IMG/VR virus record: IMGVR_UViG_3300000233_000009
Location: 1-64,000 of that record
Strand: one strand, 5' to 3'
DNA length: 64,000 bases
Origin: a virus
Positions 17,109 to 56,242 of this stretch are shown here, piece after piece. Each line of letters begins with the position of its first letter. The first letter of the stretch is position 1. A model generated the notes under the pieces. That model made no database searches, was not told where the DNA came from, and saw nothing but the letters and a program-made list of their open reading frames with translations. Position numbers and translations under genes: made by a program.

Positions 17109-19109
17109 TTAACTACTTAAAGTTAGTCTTAATCCATCGAATAAAAAATGAGATGTTGCATCTGTAATAAGGCTTATGTTAAACCTTGTTAAATCAATAT
17201 CACACGGAATAAAAATTTCATATAACGTCCACGATGTATCTGTTATAACAATGTTGTTCGTGTAGTCTGCAATAGCTCCTGAATATCTAAAATCAAAAAA
17301 TACGCTGCTACCTGCCCCAACAATATTTTTTGCGTAAAATTGAACTTTAATTACTTTATCTTTTAGTATGTTCAAAAATAAAATTTCAAGTTCTGAGTTT
17401 GTAGCACCTGCAATCGTGCCATTTACACTAATACAGTTAGTTCCATATAATTGTAAAGTATTACTGCGGGCTACATTATTAATATATTGATTCCAATTAT
17501 ACATTTTTCCATCACCGAGGGCAATCGCTTCGTCAATAGCTTTTTTAAAATTAAAAGGTTCAATAGTATTTCCTATTAATTCAATTCCAGTACATCTATA
17601 ACCTGCCCCTGACCCTGAAAGGAATGAATATTTTTTTTCTTTGAAAGTTCCTGAAATCCTATTTGTTCCGATTGTTGCTTTTGATGTTCCGCCTAACTTA
17701 GTGTTATGGTTTGTCTGTATATTATTAATTACATACCCTGACCTTGTGTACCCATCACTTTTCGCTGTATTGTTTGATACTAGAGTAGCTTTAGATACAT
17801 TAAAAGAACAGTCATTCACTCTAGCTGAGTCATACGCTTTTCCAGCAGCTATTCCTGTACAATTTGTAACTTCACAGATTCCAACCACCGAATTTATTGC
17901 AATATTTGAAGCGATAGAATCATCGCATAAAACTCCATTTATTTTTATATTTGTTGACATATCTGATTCTACAACTAAAGAAGGATTTAAAATCCAGCCT
18001 AAAACGGAATCGTAGTGATAGTCTGCTCCGACTACTACGTTTGCATCTCCTGTTCCCTTTAATAACCCGCCATCTATATTAATATTAGCACAACCACTAT
18101 TTACTTGTATTGATTCTAATGCATCTGAATAATATACATCTAGGCTTCCAGTCCCATTCACTACAGTATCTGTAATTGTTATGGTATATGCTCCTCCAAT
18201 GTTTGTATATGTAAATGGTACTGACCTATTCCCACTATTATCTGTAATAATAACACCAAGTCTGGAGTATGCTTTTGGCAAAGTGACACTATACACTGCT
18301 TGTAAGTGTATGGCTGTTACGATAGTAAGACCTAATATATTTTTTACAGTAGCATTATTAATGCCAATGTTTGTTGACAACAAAGTCTGGATACCGAATC
18401 CCGTATGGTCTTTTAATATAGGGCTATTTACATTACAGTTTAAACAACTTTCCAAAGAAATACACGTTGACGATTGTGTACCCTCCATGATTGGGGAGTC
18501 CACTATAGTGTGTTCACAAGCTGTTAAATAAAGGGCATTTCCGAATGAACCAGTAAATAATGGCCCACTTACATGAGAGAAATTAGACCCATTTAACATA
18601 ATGCCTTGCATTGTAGTAGCTCCTACAATTTTATCTATTTTAATGGATAAATAGCTTCCCGTAAATTTTAATCTGCCTACATCTAAAACTGATATTTGCT
18701 TTGCAGTTATGGTAAGATTAGATTGTGAAATTACTGTATCGCTTCTTATTGTAATCCCATCAATATTTATATTACTAATCCCAGCCAATACCATTGTATT
18801 AATAATATAACCTTCATCAGTTCCATCACCTTTAGCACCAAACCACTTTACATTAACAGCTCCTGAGTAAATACGTTTCCACTTACCAAATACAGTACCT
18901 TGGTTATCAGTAGCAGTAGTATCATATACAAATGTACCACCTCTATCTAAATCAGTCAATACAGCAGTATCTCCATCAATACCAGTAGCAGTAGTTAAAT
19001 CAGATACAGTCTTGAAGTATCTTACACTCATATTACTGTTGCTTGTATCACCATTCTCTATTGTTAGAGTTTTACCATTTGTGTTAAGTAGTTTAATTTT
19101 ACTGCTCAT
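17109..19109 (-). CDS. Tail spike, pectate-lyase (beta-helix) fold
   Basis: After a short N-terminal part ending in DRGGTFVYD, the sequence WFGAKGDGTDEG (about residues 89-100) is the entry motif of pectate_lyase_3-type beta-helices. It is followed by many short Asn/Ile/Val/Gly repeats typical of parallel beta-helix rungs to about residue 480. A carbohydrate-binding-like beta-sandwich may form the C-terminus (about 520-666). Such proteins bind and often cleave surface polysaccharide. Catalytic residues cannot be set from sequence alone. The start overlaps the upstream stop as ATGA. Confidence 0.8.
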   Translation of the reverse strand: MSSKIKLLNTNGKTLTIENGDTSNSNMSVRYFKTVSDLTTATGIDGDTAVLTDLDRGGTFVYDTTATDNQGTVFGKWKRIYSGAVNVKWFGAKGDGTDEGYIINTMVLAGISNINIDGITIRSDTVISQSNLTITAKQISVLDVGRLKFTGSYLSIKIDKIVGATTMQGIMLNGSNFSHVSGPLFTGSFGNALYLTACEHTIVDSPIMEGTQSSTCISLESCLNCNVNSPILKDHTGFGIQTLLSTNIGINNATVKNILGLTIVTAIHLQAVYSVTLPKAYSRLGVIITDNSGNRSVPFTYTNIGGAYTITITDTVVNGTGSLDVYYSDALESIQVNSGCANINIDGGLLKGTGDANVVVGADYHYDSVLGWILNPSLVVESDMSTNIKINGVLCDDSIASNIAINSVVGICEVTNCTGIAAGKAYDSARVNDCSFNVSKATLVSNNTAKSDGYTRSGYVINNIQTNHNTKLGGTSKATIGTNRISGTFKEKKYSFLSGSGAGYRCTGIELIGNTIEPFNFKKAIDEAIALGDGKMYNWNQYINNVARSNTLQLYGTNCISVNGTIAGATNSELEILFLNILKDKVIKVQFYAKNIVGAGSSVFFDFRYSGAIADYTNNIVITDTSWTLYEIFIPCDIDLTRFNISLITDATSHFLFDGLRLTLSS

Positions 19110-19291: not shown

Positions 19292-20205
19292 TACAATACC
19301 TTATATACAGAGTTATTTGGAATAGTTAGACTACCGCCTGACTCAATAGTTAAAGAGTCTATAGAGTACCCATTTGATCCAGGTGCTAGGATTAGTTCTT
19401 CAGCTGAAACATACCCTAGATACCCTAGAGATTTAATAGGAGCTTTACCTAAGTATTGTCCTCCTCCTCCACCTACAGCACCACTAAGTACTAGCACAGA
19501 ATTAAACCTTTGGACAACTAAACTTCCGTTACCTGTATCTAGTTTAGCTCTAACCTTTACAAATATACTACCATCAAATGGTACAGTAGATATTGACATA
19601 AGTGTATTCACTTGAATAGGTATGATATCGTTATTAGCCCCATTTATAGTACCTATAGCAGTTGCATACACAGTAGTAGGAGTATTCTTATCATACACCT
19701 CAAACGTCACTACTCTAGTACCTGTAGTATTTAACTTCAGTGTAATAGTAGAGAAGAAGTTAAATACACCATTAGTCTTAATCTCTATCTCATCTTCAAG
19801 TATATCTAGCAATAGTATATTGCTTGTATTAATCACTGGGGTAAATGTGAGATTCTGCATCACCGTAGTGAGGCTTAGATCTGTGCCATCATCCACCAGG
19901 GAACCACTTACACTAGCTAGGTTACTTATGGCTTCTACTTGTGAGTCATACATAGACTGGATCTTATTAGAGCTATACGTCTTCACTAGGCTAGGTGTTA
20001 CATCATCTATGATAGGGAGTGCATTAGCCACCTCTGTAATATCAGCTACCATATTGGAAACTGTTGCAATATCAGCAATATTTGTAGCAGCAATAACAAC
20101 ACTCCCTATATTACCAGCTACTATCTTTACATTGTCATATGCAGTATTATCAAGTTGACGATCAACTTCTAATGCAGGTGTTCTTGAGCTGGGAACTCTT
20201 CTCAT
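19291..20205 (-). CDS. Tail fibre / appendage protein (304 aa)
   Basis: The N-terminal repeats (DNVKIVAGNIGSVVIAATNIADI...) match the helical coiled-coil spacers seen at fibre N-termini. Residues 120-230 form a beta-rich TNF-like or jelly-roll region, and the Gly-rich end has VGGGGG. It overlaps the adaptor gene by 4 nt (ATGA). It is most likely an appendage that attaches to the tail and carries the spike. N4 appendage genes gp65/gp66 lie in the same operon region. Confidence 0.6.
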   Translation of the reverse strand: MRRVPSSRTPALEVDRQLDNTAYDNVKIVAGNIGSVVIAATNIADIATVSNMVADITEVANALPIIDDVTPSLVKTYSSNKIQSMYDSQVEAISNLASVSGSLVDDGTDLSLTTVMQNLTFTPVINTSNILLLDILEDEIEIKTNGVFNFFSTITLKLNTTGTRVVTFEVYDKNTPTTVYATAIGTINGANNDIIPIQVNTLMSISTVPFDGSIFVKVRAKLDTGNGSLVVQRFNSVLVLSGAVGGGGGQYLGKAPIKSLGYLGYVSAEELILAPGSNGYSIDSLTIESGGSLTIPNNSVYKVL

Positions 20206-44700: not shown

Positions 44701-44783
44701 ACTACATAAATTCCCACTACTCAACCTTAATTAGGTATAATGCAATTCTTATGTTACAACAAACCTTAAAGGAACCCCTATGA
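44697..44783 (+). CDS. Mini-ORF bridging to the intein-containing gene (28 aa)
   Basis: The ATG at 44697 overlaps the previous stop and its stop overlaps the next ATG (44780), so it bridges both genes exactly. It carries the ribosome site of the next gene (AAAGGAACCCCT). It may serve translational coupling more than make a product. Confidence 0.35.
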   Translation: MNYINSHYSTLIRYNAILMLQQTLKEPL

Positions 44784-47700
44784 AAATAGAAGATCAAATC
44801 CTCAATTCTTTGGACAGCCTCATAGCACAATATAAAGAGGAACTAACATTCTTACAAAATCGCAGTATGGACACATTTGATATGACTACGCTACCGCAGA
44901 TCATCCAAGATATTGCCAAACTAGCAATAGCTAAAACACCTTCATTTAGCAACATATCAGCTGTAGCAGTGGCTAACTTCGTGCTTAGTCATACATTCGG
45001 TCAACTACGCCCTCACATCAACGACCCTATATACTCTGATGATCAAGTAGGCGTTAATACATACAGCACCATTATTAGTCGAAGCGGGTGTGTGGATGCA
45101 GATACCGAATTCTGCACGCCCACGGGATGGAAACGTATTGCGGACTTCTCTGCAAGTGATACAGTATTGTCTTGGGGTCCAGCTGGATATAGCGAGTTCG
45201 TCACTCCTACCCATTACATCAAACAGCCTGCTAGCATGTTGACCAAGTATTCTAGTAGAGACTTTGATATGGTACTCTCTGATGACCATAACATGGCTCT
45301 ACTGGACACAACAGGCAAGCCTGTTAAGATGCTTGCAGGAGATTTTAAAAAACTGCCTGACAGAACTCATACCATCCCATTCAAATTTTACAGTCCTACG
45401 AATACAACTGGACTAGATATGACCGACGATGAATTAAGAGTATTTATTGTGTATACTATTGATAACTTAGCAGTAAAAGAAAATAATGCGAGAATCAAAA
45501 TACGAGTAAAAGAACCTTATAAGAAAGAACGTTTACGTCAACTTAGTATTAACCTAACAGGTTCTATTGTTGAGTATACAGTTCCGTCGAACCCTGATTA
45601 TAGTATCTTCTACCTACCTCCAATTAAAGGGCTCGATACTAACTCTATTGGCCTGTTATGGAATTTGACCCCTGCACAAACCATAATTGCTGCAGATGAG
45701 TTATGGAGATGGGGTGGAGCTTTAGATAAAAGAGGGTCTAAAACATTCAGAACCACTAAGAAGGCAGAAGCGGACCTAGTACAATTTATTTGGCAATCTG
45801 CGTATGACACTGCTGTAACCATGAACATTAAAGACGGTCCTGATAATAGACCGCCTCACACAAAATATAAAGTGACCGTAACTAAACACAAGTATTTGGA
45901 CTTTAGAGTAAAGACAGATTCTCTACTAACAGAGTGCCCGACAGTAGATGGGTATCAATACTGCTTCACTATGCCTAACTCTAATTGGGTGGCTAGACGT
46001 GAGGGTAAGATATTTCTTACTCACAATAGTGGTAAAGACTCAACCTATCAAGCTATCACCAAGACAACTCTACCAGCATTGGACTATATTAACAACCTAG
46101 CTGCAATAGAAGCAGAAGAAGTAGCGCGTGCTAAATATATCAAAGAAGCAGCTAAAACCATAAAGGGCTTTGACGAATCCTCGGTATGTAAAGATGATTA
46201 TGAGGAACACATTAAGAAACCAGAAATTCTAATAACCAGTCTAGGCTCCTCACGGGGAGGGCTAACCACAAGTCTTAATAGAATGGCACACACAAACTTC
46301 CATACTAAATCGCTTTTTGCATCAGAGCTAGGTCTAGCAATCCAATCAAATGCAGGAATCATACCTGTACTTGAACTCTTCTCAACTTTGTATGATATGG
46401 GGCAATCTGTTGCACCTGAGTTCAAAACAGAAGACGCTAAAGAAGAATCTGTTGAGGGGATGTATCCAAATCTCTTAGGTATATCCAGCCCAACTCCATT
46501 CTATCAAGAAGGAAACGTTCGTAAACTATTTATACCTATGCTTACGACCTCATTAGCACGTCGTATGACTATCGTATTTTCAACAGCTAAAGAAGAATTT
46601 GAAAATATGTATATACCACAATCCCCCGCAGAGAAACGACAATTACAAGCGGAACAACGTGTGCTACTGTCAACTTACACAGACTCCATAAGCAAACAGC
46701 TATTAACCGCTGTGAAGTCATTGAGTCACAATAGTACTATAATGTTCGATGAGGAGTCTTCAGTAATCTATGACGACTACAAAGCGTATACACAAGAACT
46801 CAGCAAATCTTTATTATTGTGTGATAAAGAATCTGTGGAGGGAATAGAGATGTCTGGTCGTGCGTTCAAGATGGGGCGTATTGCTGCAACTTGGGCTATT
46901 GCATCCAACTCCAATGTCATCAGTGCAGATGTGCTAAAAGCAGCTATTTACTTCTGCGACTACACAGCTCAACATTTGATCAAATTTGTGGCTACACTTA
47001 ATTTAAAAGACTATGAGCTATTTATCGCTGATTGGGAGCAAGAATTCTTTGGTAACATATTGCCTATTGACAAAGCGATTACTAAAGGATACATCAACGT
47101 GAAGGCAATCACTCAACAATCCTTAAACAACTTCCTCAAACCAGTCAACAGTAAGCTTGAGGGAGTAGCAACAGTAAGCTATGACGAAGTGACTAATGCA
47201 TTTGTATTCGTTCCTGTAGTACGTAACTTGGACAACACTTATTCATACCGTGCTTGTCAGGGGCATACCACTACAGCTCAGATCACAAACATTGTCACTG
47301 GCAAGACCATCGATGCTCTTGGGTCTTTACTGACTGTTGATTCATCATTTAACCCTTTTGTAGAAGACACTGCAAAGTTTATTGTTCTGCGGGTATCCAA
47401 TGCATTCTTAACAGCGCAAATGGTAAGTAAATACATAGCAAATATATGCCACTTTATAGCCCCTACAAGCGACGATCATAGCTTTACCATACTAATCCCT
47501 ACCAACATGGTAATCGAGCGTTCACAGTACAAGTATATAGTACTATCAATAGCTCACCAATTGATGCTAAAAATAGCACCAGAACTATGTGAATCCACTA
47601 CGGTTCACCATGGATACGCTGGTATACCATTACTAGCATCCACAGCTGAAGCGCCATTACTCTATGACATAAGTGGTATTATTGGTAGTTTCGCAGCAGG

Positions 47701-47995
47701 GACTCCTGCGCCGTTACTTGCAGTCAAACCTAATGTCAAACCGACTTCAGCAGTAGTAGCTAAGTACCTGCAAACTGACATTATCGACAACCAAGCAATT
47801 ATTGTGGATATGCTAAATGTTTCTAATAATCCTACACTACTCCTAGCAAACATCGTGTATGATATGCGGATTCACGGAGTAGACCAACATCGCTGTGTAT
47901 CTGTCATCAACAGTATCAACAGCGCATTGGATACATCTATGCCTGAATCAACTATACATGGATACTTTATTGAGCCCTTCATAGGACTGATATAG
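44780..47995 (+). CDS. P-loop ATPase/primase-helicase-like protein with an intein
   Basis: 1071 aa before splicing. The intein takes residues 104-416. Removing it joins SRSG to SGKDST, forming a Walker A-like GSGKDST motif. The mature 758-aa protein then has SLGSSRGGL, a Walker B-like SLFASELG and a long helical part resembling DUF3987-type helicase proteins. It lies in the N4 replication block, next to polymerase and primase, so I read it as the replicative helicase or an equivalent ATPase. ATP use depends on splicing. Confidence 0.75.
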   Translation: MKIEDQILNSLDSLIAQYKEELTFLQNRSMDTFDMTTLPQIIQDIAKLAIAKTPSFSNISAVAVANFVLSHTFGQLRPHINDPIYSDDQVGVNTYSTIISRSGCVDADTEFCTPTGWKRIADFSASDTVLSWGPAGYSEFVTPTHYIKQPASMLTKYSSRDFDMVLSDDHNMALLDTTGKPVKMLAGDFKKLPDRTHTIPFKFYSPTNTTGLDMTDDELRVFIVYTIDNLAVKENNARIKIRVKEPYKKERLRQLSINLTGSIVEYTVPSNPDYSIFYLPPIKGLDTNSIGLLWNLTPAQTIIAADELWRWGGALDKRGSKTFRTTKKAEADLVQFIWQSAYDTAVTMNIKDGPDNRPPHTKYKVTVTKHKYLDFRVKTDSLLTECPTVDGYQYCFTMPNSNWVARREGKIFLTHNSGKDSTYQAITKTTLPALDYINNLAAIEAEEVARAKYIKEAAKTIKGFDESSVCKDDYEEHIKKPEILITSLGSSRGGLTTSLNRMAHTNFHTKSLFASELGLAIQSNAGIIPVLELFSTLYDMGQSVAPEFKTEDAKEESVEGMYPNLLGISSPTPFYQEGNVRKLFIPMLTTSLARRMTIVFSTAKEEFENMYIPQSPAEKRQLQAEQRVLLSTYTDSISKQLLTAVKSLSHNSTIMFDEESSVIYDDYKAYTQELSKSLLLCDKESVEGIEMSGRAFKMGRIAATWAIASNSNVISADVLKAAIYFCDYTAQHLIKFVATLNLKDYELFIADWEQEFFGNILPIDKAITKGYINVKAITQQSLNNFLKPVNSKLEGVATVSYDEVTNAFVFVPVVRNLDNTYSYRACQGHTTTAQITNIVTGKTIDALGSLLTVDSSFNPFVEDTAKFIVLRVSNAFLTAQMVSKYIANICHFIAPTSDDHSFTILIPTNMVIERSQYKYIVLSIAHQLMLKIAPELCESTTVHHGYAGIPLLASTAEAPLLYDISGIIGSFAAGTPAPLLAVKPNVKPTSAVVAKYLQTDIIDNQAIIVDMLNVSNNPTLLLANIVYDMRIHGVDQHRCVSVINSINSALDTSMPESTIHGYFIEPFIGLI
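45089..46027 (+). mobile_element. Intein inserted in the Walker A motif, degenerate LAGLIDADG endonuclease
   Basis: Block A: CVDADTEFCTPTGWKRIADF begins at Cys104. Block B-like: DHNMALL. C-terminal: YCFTMPNSNWVARREGKIFLTHN ending in Asn416, followed by Ser417 (+1 nucleophile). The 313-aa element includes a LAGLIDADG-like part (LDMTDDELRVFIVYTIDN and the ELWRWGGALDKRG...KKAEADLVQ repeat). The second acidic residue, expected as W-D-G, is Gly here, so nuclease activity is likely reduced or lost. Splicing residues look intact. Inteins favour such conserved ATP-binding loops. Confidence 0.9.
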
Positions 47996-48091: not shown

Positions 48092-48120
48092 TTGACTTTT
48101 ATGGGAATTTTGGGTATACT
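48092..48120 (+). promoter_or_regulatory. Strong sigma70-type promoter
   Basis: TTGACT (48092-48097), 17-nt spacer, TATACT (48115-48120). This is a near-consensus host promoter placed before the ATPase/primase/SSB cluster. Start of transcription would be near 48127, inside a long palindrome. It would let host polymerase read this replication block without the phage polymerases. Confidence 0.8.
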
Positions 48121-48152
48121 ATTGATAATAGTAGCTACTATTATCAATAGTA
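48117..48152 (+). promoter_or_regulatory. 36-bp perfect palindrome (putative operator)
   Basis: An uninterrupted 18+18 palindrome spans the end of the -10 box and the predicted start site. Its centre is 48134/48135 (TAGTAG|CTACTA). Such a site over a promoter suggests a dimeric repressor or activator, or a self-pairing transcript start. No repressor gene is recognised in this window. Confidence 0.75.
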
Positions 48153-48161
48153 CCAAGTTAA

Positions 48162-48250
48162 CTTAAACAAGTGGATTTTTGTCCAGATTCATCCACTTGC
48201 TTAAGGGAACTCCTACGAGTTTGAACGAATCTGGACAATTCTTTTTCCTC
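48162..48250 (+). promoter_or_regulatory. Leader with competing hairpins (attenuator or pseudoknot candidate)
   Basis: Stem 1: 48162-48176 pairs with 48191-48205 (15 positions, one mismatch). Its 14-nt loop contains TTGTCCAGATTC (48179-48190), which pairs fully with GAATCTGGACAA (48227-48238) as stem 2, followed by TTCTTTTTCC. Stem 2 looks like a terminator, and stem 1 would block it, or the two form a partial pseudoknot. It lies between the promoter at 48092 and the ATPase start at 48320. Confidence 0.7.
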
Positions 48251-48319
48251 TTAAAGCACACACCGTCTGAAAGTAATTTCATGTTAAAACACACAATTAT
48301 CGAATATAAGGAGGTCATC

Positions 48320-48871
48320 ATGTTAGCACACGTATTTCGTAAGGATGGAGTAAACGTGGTCTACGGTCAATCAGGTATTGGCAAGACTATTAGTACCATT
48401 AAAGCACTTAACAGCGAAGGATTTACACCAATCCTGCTAGACTTTGATGATAATAACAGCCCTGAACAAAATCAATGTGAGTTTACGCACATTAATGGGT
48501 GGAGCTTTATGAAGTCCTACAATGACCCTGCTACAGCTGTAATGATGCCAACAAATACAATCATCGTTATTGATACCTGGCATATGTTCAACCAGTTTTA
48601 CTCTACCAATCCCACAATCCTACAGGACTTAGCTGAAGGGAATACCATAATTATTATTGGGCATGTACTAGATCTTGCCACTAGACAGGATATTCCTGAC
48701 ATCCCAACCGAATTTGTAAATCACTGCGATGCAAAGCTATTTTTGTCTTATGACAATGGAAGTAGTGTTAAAGGCAGAGAACGTCCTGCTGGGACTGTAC
48801 TGGAAGTCAAAAAGCTACGGGGATACTCTGGACCTAAACATATTACTAACTGGGCAAGAGAACCAAAATGA
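48320..48871 (+). CDS. P-loop ATPase (183 aa)
   Basis: The ATG at 48320 follows AAGGAGG; an ATG at 48179 lies in the structured leader and is rejected. Walker A GQSGIGKT (16-23) and Walker B-like IIVIDTWHMF fit small RecA-like ATPases. First gene after the promoter/leader. Possibly a helicase loader or recombination ATPase. It overlaps the primase region by 4 nt. Confidence 0.65.
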   Translation: MLAHVFRKDGVNVVYGQSGIGKTISTIKALNSEGFTPILLDFDDNNSPEQNQCEFTHINGWSFMKSYNDPATAVMMPTNTIIVIDTWHMFNQFYSTNPTILQDLAEGNTIIIIGHVLDLATRQDIPDIPTEFVNHCDAKLFLSYDNGSSVKGRERPAGTVLEVKKLRGYSGPKHITNWAREPK

Positions 48872-48906: not shown

Positions 48907-49689
48907 ATGCAAGTAACATTATCCACTCGTGCTATGCATAATCTTAGCAAAGCCGAACGAAGGAATATAAAATACTACACACGTTTCTTACAGTGTAGCT
49001 TTAAGTCTCTAACGAGTCTACTTATTAAAGACTATATGTATTCACCATTTAATTATATCGGATACACACAAAACACAAGTAATATATGTAGTGAAGCAAA
49101 CTTTGTCGTGATTGATGTAGACCATACTAACATCCCGATCAACTTACGCATTGAGCAATTAAAAGCTGAAGGACTACAATGCATTCTAGGAACTACAAGC
49201 AACGCAACAGATTGGTACAAGTATCGTGTATTGATTCCACTTGATCGACCTGTATCGCCTACTGAGTATCGTTACTTAGTACATGGCATACGTGTAAATG
49301 GGCTTATCCCAGACATGGATACAGCATCAGCTAAACCTGCACAAAAGTTCTATTCCTATGCTAACTCGACTGTACTACATTCCTTCACTGGATCACCACT
49401 GATTGTAGATGACTACATACTAGAACCAACACAGATAGAGTGTAAAGCCATAACTACGTCAGATGACATCACTTATCTACTCCCTGAATTCAATAGGTAT
49501 CAATATGCAGTTAAAGGGAAACGCACTCGTAGTTTAATATCAGCGGGCTATCGTTGCTTACAACTAGGTATGACAGACACACAGGTGGAGCAAGTTATAA
49601 CTTATGTCAATAATTTGTTCTTAATCCCTAAGCCACACAATGAACTTAAACGTCGTGTGTTGACTTTTTTAAAAACACAAAGGAACTAA
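48907..49689 (+). CDS. AEP-type primase (PrimPol-like)
   Basis: Metal motif VVIDVDH (Asp70-x-Asp72), then TTSNATDWYKYRVLIPLDRPVSPTEYR, typical of archaeo-eukaryotic primase domains in phage replication proteins, and a KPAQKFYSYANS strand. The ATG at 48907 is favoured because AGGAG lies 8 nt upstream; the ATG at 48868 overlaps the ATPase stop but lacks a ribosome site, and a C9 run lies between. It makes primers for the family A polymerase. Confidence 0.75.
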   Translation: MQVTLSTRAMHNLSKAERRNIKYYTRFLQCSFKSLTSLLIKDYMYSPFNYIGYTQNTSNICSEANFVVIDVDHTNIPINLRIEQLKAEGLQCILGTTSNATDWYKYRVLIPLDRPVSPTEYRYLVHGIRVNGLIPDMDTASAKPAQKFYSYANSTVLHSFTGSPLIVDDYILEPTQIECKAITTSDDITYLLPEFNRYQYAVKGKRTRSLISAGYRCLQLGMTDTQVEQVITYVNNLFLIPKPHNELKRRVLTFLKTQRN

Positions 49690-50534: not shown

Positions 50535-51158
50535 ATGTCGGCTAAGAAAATAATACTCCATCTATGCGCCGATCTAGGAAGTGACAGTAAATACTATCAA
50601 CAAGATCCGAGCTATGAGGTTATTATGATAGGAGAGTCAGTTGGAGTTGAAAATTACACTCCTCCCCAAAATGTTCACGGAATAATAGCAAACCCTGTGT
50701 GTACAGAATTTTCTACCGCAAAATGCTTCACTCATGTAGGAGATTTAGAAAAAGGAATGTTTCTTGTTAACCATTGTTTACGTATTATAGAAGAGGCAAG
50801 ACCTAAATGGTGGGTACTAGAAAATCCTGCCAAAGGAAGACTAAAAGAAAAGTTAGGTATGTATAAACACGCCTATCAACCTTGGCATTACGGCAGTCCA
50901 TGGACTAAATATACAGGACTATGGGGTAATTTTATAATGCCAGCAAAACTATACACCAAATGGAAAGATGTGCCTAAGATACCGTCTTTATATAGTAGAC
51001 CAGGAAGAGAAAAACCAGGACTTGTGTATTTCCACAAATCAGCTGTAACACTAATTCCAGAAATGCAGTGGGCAAAGGATCGTATTAAGTGTGATGCTGA
51101 TATACGCTCTATGTGTAGTGATGGATTTGCTAGGGAATTTTACAAAGCAAACCATTAA
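50535..51158 (+). CDS. DNA cytosine methyltransferase-like protein (207 aa)
   Basis: LHLCADLGSDSKYYQQ (motif I-like), IIANPVCTEFSTAK (motif IV-like, Cys kept but Val replaces the first Pro's partner in the PC motif) and WWVLENPAKGRLKEKLG (motif VI ENP) follow the order of small phage C5-methyltransferase-like proteins, continuing YGSPWTKYTGLWGNF. The Pro-Cys change leaves activity open. It may modify phage DNA or be a relic. Confidence 0.65.
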   Translation: MSAKKIILHLCADLGSDSKYYQQDPSYEVIMIGESVGVENYTPPQNVHGIIANPVCTEFSTAKCFTHVGDLEKGMFLVNHCLRIIEEARPKWWVLENPAKGRLKEKLGMYKHAYQPWHYGSPWTKYTGLWGNFIMPAKLYTKWKDVPKIPSLYSRPGREKPGLVYFHKSAVTLIPEMQWAKDRIKCDADIRSMCSDGFAREFYKANH

Positions 51159-55972: not shown

Positions 55973-56242
55973 ATGACACGAAAAGAACTAGTTGCATGTA
56001 TCGCAACCAAAAAAAGCATTACTAAAGTAGAAGCTACTCGTCAATTAGACACAGTATTGGACGCTATTGAAGCAGCCCTCACAACGGACTCTGTTGTAGA
56101 TCTATTTGGGTTTGGTAAATTTACCAAAAAACACAAACCTGCCAAATCAGGTATTGCATTGGGTAAACCATATAGCACACCTACAAAGAATGTTGTAAAA
56201 TTCAAAGCTGCTAAAGCATTAAATGATACTTTAAACTCTTAG
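55973..56242 (+). CDS. HU/IHF-like DNA-binding protein
   Basis: 89 aa with the standard HU order: N-terminal helices, LFGFGKFTKKHKPAKSG and a C-terminal KFKAAKALNDTL. It lacks the long conserved GRNPxTG loop tip of bacterial HU (here SGIALGKPYSTPT), a common phage variation. It may bend or compact phage DNA. AAAGGAAC precedes the ATG; a terminator follows. Confidence 0.85.
   Translation: MTRKELVACIATKKSITKVEATRQLDTVLDAIEAALTTDSVVDLFGFGKFTKKHKPAKSGIALGKPYSTPTKNVVKFKAAKALNDTLNS

Follow-up and report, generated by a model that had tools for sequence, protein, structure and literature searches.

Introduction

In the OR and OL regions of phage lambda, adjacent 17-bp repressor dyads overlap the promoter. 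The promoters of restriction-modification systems that are controlled by C proteins carry C-boxes of the type GACT-tat-AGTC, which are arranged as two operators with a 3-nt centre (PMC4824078). In phage N4, the early and middle genes are read by phage polymerases and the late genes by the host sigma70 RNA polymerase, and the promoters of the virion RNA polymerase are characterized by a short stem, a 3-nt loop and a GC-rich heptamer centred at -11 (PMC4496689). When an N4 promoter hairpin was present inside a sigma70 promoter, activity was abolished unless gyrase was inhibited (PMC4496689).

The locus described here is situated in a 64 kb window, i.e. the whole stretch of DNA that was analysed, from an uncultivated virus whose record comprises 68,086 bases. 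A first-pass annotation had assigned this DNA to an N4-like phage, which was borne out by profile comparison, because the virion RNA polymerase matched phrog_2206 with an E value of 1.5e-123. The portal and terminase were also recognised in the window, and the best named relatives of the family A DNA polymerase are the Alteromonas AD45 phages with 27% identity. The annotation had further pointed out that most early/middle genes of an N4-like phage use phage polymerases. This holds for N4, which keeps the host sigma70 RNA polymerase for its late genes (PMC4496689), and a host-type promoter in the replication region is therefore off-pattern.

Results

The locus contains a perfect 36-bp palindrome, TACTATTGATAATAGTAGCTACTATTATCAATAGTA, at 48117-48152, in which all positions are complementary (18/18) and no loop is left, exactly as the earlier reading of an unbroken palindrome had it. 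No other 100% inverted repeat was reported for the window, where the next-longest perfect arms have 9 bp. From the base composition, 2.4e-6 perfect palindromes of 36 bp are expected per window, and perfect arms never exceeded 10 bp in 60 dinucleotide-preserving shuffles of the window; the palindrome is far above chance. It can be written as TACTATT-gat-AATAGTA / GC / TACTATT-atc-AATAGTA, i.e. as two adjacent 17-bp operator-like dyads at 48117-48133 (dyad 1) and 48136-48152 (dyad 2), which have identical 7-bp arms and are spaced by 19 bp from centre to centre. Each palindrome arm is itself a 7-3-7 dyad, a structure with a chance of 0.002 per 18-mer. Relative to the predicted transcription start, dyad 1 extends from about -10 to +7 and dyad 2 from about +10 to +26, and the operator-like site previously noticed over the start can thus be specified as two tandem dyads covering the -10 region and the predicted start. 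The symmetry continues into an extended dyad of the form TTGG-(GTA bulge)-palindrome-CCAA at 48110-48156, whose 3-nt bulge contributes to the -10 box. As single strand, the palindrome is predicted to fold with -13.9 kcal/mol (DNA parameters; z -8) into a 16-bp AT-rich stem with a 4-nt loop. The presence of two adjacent copies of one dyad overlapping the promoter is the arrangement of tandem operators, and a pair of operators for a dimeric repressor would account for the palindrome better than a hairpin, because nested dyads are expected of the former and not of the latter, with which they compete. Elsewhere in the window, 17 sites resemble the dyad with up to 3 mismatches against 12 expected, which is not above chance. 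The GC skew shows no change at the palindrome that would signal a replication origin, and an iteron-type origin was dismissed, because there are two repeat copies only and no Rep-like gene in the slot of this window. A small hydrophobic ORF running through the palindrome (48101-48166) has no ribosome site and was judged a chance occurrence.

Direct reading of the + strand revealed sigma70-type promoter-like hexamers, TTGACT-17-TATACT, at 48092-48120, with the -35-like TTGACT at 48092-48097 and the -10-like TATACT at 48115-48120. The 17-nt spacer lies within the 16-18 nt of sigma70 promoters and 10/12 positions match; the near-consensus hexamers with 17-nt spacing of the first-pass annotation are hence present, though not above chance when taken alone, because an equally good match occurred in 14% of shuffled 324-nt leaders. 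In the whole window, the + strand has 11 sites with at least 10/12 matches, and the site at 48092-48120 is the sole one within the 3.7 kb of intergenic + strand that were examined. This chance-level score limits the hexamers as promoter evidence, while activity is still possible, and the promoter gains credibility because the palindrome overlaps the hexamers. By rule of thumb, transcription is predicted to start at about 48127.

The comparison with the described systems gave partial similarities. The locus shares with C-boxes the two side-by-side near-palindromic dyads with a 3-nt centre within the promoter region, but its half-site differs, the 17-bp dyads are 2 bp apart and lie over the predicted start, and no C protein was found, though a DNA methyltransferase-like gene exists at 50535-51158. 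As in lambda OR/OL, adjacent 17-bp dyads overlap the promoter-like hexamers; however, there are two copies only, which form a perfect mutual palindrome, and no repressor gene was recognised alongside. Because no regulator was found, membership of the C-box or lambda-type class is not claimed. The inverted repeat at the predicted start site in an N4-like phage recalls the N4 hairpin promoters, but the 16-bp AT-rich stem, the 4-nt loop and the sigma70 hexamers differ from the short stem, 3-nt loop and GC-rich centre of the latter, and an identity as virion RNA polymerase promoter was rejected on these grounds. No member of the known repressor families was detected among the proteins scanned from this window with its many unannotated ORFs, and no regulator was found in the literature for the half-site. 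Of the scanned proteins, just one was recognised as DNA-architectural, an HU/IHF-like DNA-binding protein (gene at 55973-56242).

The + strand leader downstream of the palindrome can form two helices. In helix P1 (48168-48199), positions 48168-48176 pair with 48191-48199, with an imperfect extension to 48156/48211. The terminator-like helix P2 (48179-48238) comprises 12 bp between 48179-48190 and 48227-48238, crosses P1, and is followed by the U-rich tract TTCTTTTT, which was read directly at 48239-48246. The stem of P2 with its U run (UUCUUUUU) has the layout of an intrinsic terminator, and its crossing by P1 provides the competing helix that is expected of an attenuator. Folding of growing fragments, with pseudoknot energies left out, predicted that P1 forms first and P2 only once the transcript reaches about 48240. 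The folding of the leader has a z of -3.2, and a 12-bp helix was found in 0.5% and a crossing pair of at least 9 bp in 5% of the shuffled leaders. A standard terminator scan missed P2, because its loop has 36 nt. The crossing helices and the U-rich end of P2 give the leader the appearance of either an attenuator or a short RNA, which would terminate upstream of the ribosome site used by the following gene. It resembles attenuators in that an early P1 would be followed by the terminator-like P2 and the U tract ahead of a gene, but differs in that the strands of P1 and P2 are adjacent and not shared (pseudoknot order), in the size of the terminator loop, and in that neither a leader peptide nor a ligand is in evidence.

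The Rfam scan of the leader returned nothing at the gathering threshold and weak chance matches below it, antisense targets of more than 12 nt are absent from the window, and the comparison with related phages yielded chance-level matches only. The same is true for the P1/P2 pattern and for blastn against phages and plasmids. Two Pseudoalteromonas intergenic 24-mers (E=3) were inspected and showed nothing in common, and both matches of the P2 stem pattern are located in unrelated, repeat-rich DNA. Between P2 and the following gene, an imperfect 19-nt repeat, TTTCCTCTTAAAGCACACA / TTTCATGTTAAAACACACA, was observed at 48244-48262 and 48277-48295, which could be a phage promoter element.

The first gene after the cassette (48320-48871, + strand) encodes a Sak4-like/AAA_24 ATPase according to a weak profile match, and its ribosome-binding site AAGGAGG can be read directly at 48308-48314 on the same strand. 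At the sensitivity used, searches of phages, viral contigs, genomes and the N4-like relatives turned up nothing related to it. This gene is flanked by two primase-type genes on the + strand, an upstream one at 44780-47995, which covers phrog_2135 profile positions 150-381 and is interrupted by an intein-like insertion, and a second one at 48907-49689, which covers profile positions 470-704 and is conserved in relatives. The initial placement of the promoter before primase/SSB genes is not exact in this respect, since the next gene is the Sak4-like one with primase-type genes on both sides, and no SSB was identified. Likewise, the suggested control of primase/SSB is not supported, because the gene that follows is an accessory one in a variable slot, the terminator-like helix separates it from the promoter, and a cognate regulator was not recognised. 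The conserved 255-aa protein (51251) was considered as SSB, but its profile showed no similarity to the AD45 SSB. AlphaFold models of this protein and of the Sak4-like protein had a confidence below the usable level, and neighbouring Sak4-like genes are not recognisable as mutual duplicates. The second primase-type gene probably begins downstream of the ORF start at 48868; the relatives support the ATG at 48907 (MQVTLS), which is preceded by a run of nine C. The upstream primase-type protein harbours a probable intein of ~313 residues (45089-46027) in its P-loop (RSG^CVDADTEFCTPTG...GKIFLTHN^SGKDST), which is missing from all relatives found.

Seven viral contigs share the polymerase and primase-type genes, with DNA polymerase identities of 57-77%, and two further short contigs were added to this set of relatives. 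The slot between the primase-type genes holds no gene in L007, L008 and L012, a small cysteine-rich gene in L003 and L006, two small genes in L002, and a gene of unknown family in L005 and L013, which in L013 is preceded by two 20-bp repeats 32 bp apart. In L004, RHH-like and winged-helix Rep_O/RepL-like genes are found behind four 17-bp dyads with 23-bp spacing. Because the relatives carry unrelated genes at this position, the slot is, as judged from these gene orders, an accessory hotspot that is filled differently among relatives. The tandem repeats upstream of other slot genes are a parallel in layout, not homology. The palindrome is missing between the primase-type genes of all relatives, which are distant and have other DNA at this spot, and the dyad, even with one mismatch, is absent from the seven parent records and AD45-P1 (eight relatives). 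A relaxed palindrome pattern found no match in viral contigs and genomes, and the dyads as a pair did not occur in two large collections; the single match of a wider-gap pattern, in L022, is a simple 31-bp tandem repeat and unrelated. The four dyads of L004 are located at 18474-18565, with a distal copy at 19361. Spaced repeats and a Rep-type gene make up an iteron-like set in L004, and its dyads together with the RHH-like and winged-helix genes have the look of a module of plasmid type, for replication or control, in an N4-like phage.

Discussion

The cassette resembles an on/off switch ahead of an accessory gene. Based on sequence features and predicted folds, we tentatively propose, with slightly less than even confidence, a lineage-specific cassette in which a repressor-controlled host-type promoter is combined with an attenuated leader. 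Such a cassette would occupy the accessory-gene slot between the two primase-type genes and allow the host sigma70 RNA polymerase to initiate near 48127. A dimeric repressor, encoded by the phage, a prophage or the host, would bind both 17-bp dyads, probably as two side-by-side dimers, and block open-complex formation. From the free promoter, the transcript would fold P1 first and then encounter the terminator-like P2 with its U tract, where many transcripts may stop near 48247 to give an RNA of ~120 nt, while read-through transcripts would reach the Sak4-like gene. Because N4 uses the host sigma70 polymerase for late genes, the candidate promoter would be a supplement that belongs to the accessory cassette and stands outside the core programme.

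It might also be possible that the region acts at the RNA level. Palindrome, P1 and P2 follow each other in succession just past the stop codon of the upstream primase-type gene, and in mRNA reading through from this gene the palindrome could form a 16-bp hairpin serving as RNase III or stability site, which would make the region an RNA processing and termination module and the promoter match, with its 14% chance, a coincidence. The strong single-strand fold given above is consistent with this possibility; however, an RNA hairpin does not need 18/18 Watson-Crick pairs, a symmetric centre and nested dyads, and RNA starting at 48127 keeps only part of the palindrome, hence we regard it as unlikely, albeit with some appreciable probability. 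The terminator-like P2 and U tract ahead of the Sak4-like ribosome site and the strong folding would also suit a stand-alone phage small-RNA gene, consisting of the promoter, a structured RNA of ~120 nt and a terminator, with no relation to the Sak4-like gene, which would be read by a phage polymerase. The leader showed neither an Rfam match at threshold nor a homologue nor long stretches complementary to other parts of the phage window, and this explanation appears distinctly improbable.

A slightly smaller probability is given to a supercoil-driven cruciform, in which the 16-bp stem extrudes and either silences the overlapping promoter or serves as a mark for replication or recombination. 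The perfect AT-rich palindrome and the N4 hairpin silencing of a sigma70 promoter, which is relieved by gyrase inhibition (PMC4496689), argue for it, but the structure does not match the N4 virion RNA polymerase hairpins with their short stem, 3-nt loop and GC-rich heptamer, the GC skew does not change at the site, and the nested dyads are left without explanation. It is very unlikely that the host-type promoter is supercoil-gated in the sense that a cruciform over the -10 region and start silences it until superhelicity falls; if true, the hairpin principle known from the early promoters of N4 would apply to the host polymerase as well. The lineage-specific occurrence in a variable slot would agree with a remnant without function that was left by an inserted element or a duplication event, but a palindrome with all 18/18 pairs intact would be expected to decay if it were not recent, and we consider this origin hardly probable at all.

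Returning to the repressor-controlled promoter with attenuated leader, such a repressor-type promoter is unusual in this N4-like region, and the kind of device itself is already known. N4-like phages are thought to spare the host polymerase until late infection. If our proposal is true, single accessory cassettes could be under the control of regulators from the host, a prophage or the phage, and the slot may act as docking site for such switches, because the same slot carries different cassettes in related phages. The cassette would be a good candidate for routine promoter and operator work, without a new principle being involved.

Two further observations concern the polymerase genes. The DNA polymerase genes of relatives show, between them, two different insertion sites, which are occupied by 1.1-1.2 kb of intron or intein at 10522-11709 in L003, 12112-13176 in L007 and 1852-2916 in L008. 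The minus-strand reading frame of the virion RNA polymerase is interrupted by one stop codon at 64609-64611 of the parent record, just past the window, which is flanked by open stretches at 68085-64612 and 64608-60586; the virion RNA polymerase gene of AD45-P1 is likewise annotated as a potential frameshift.
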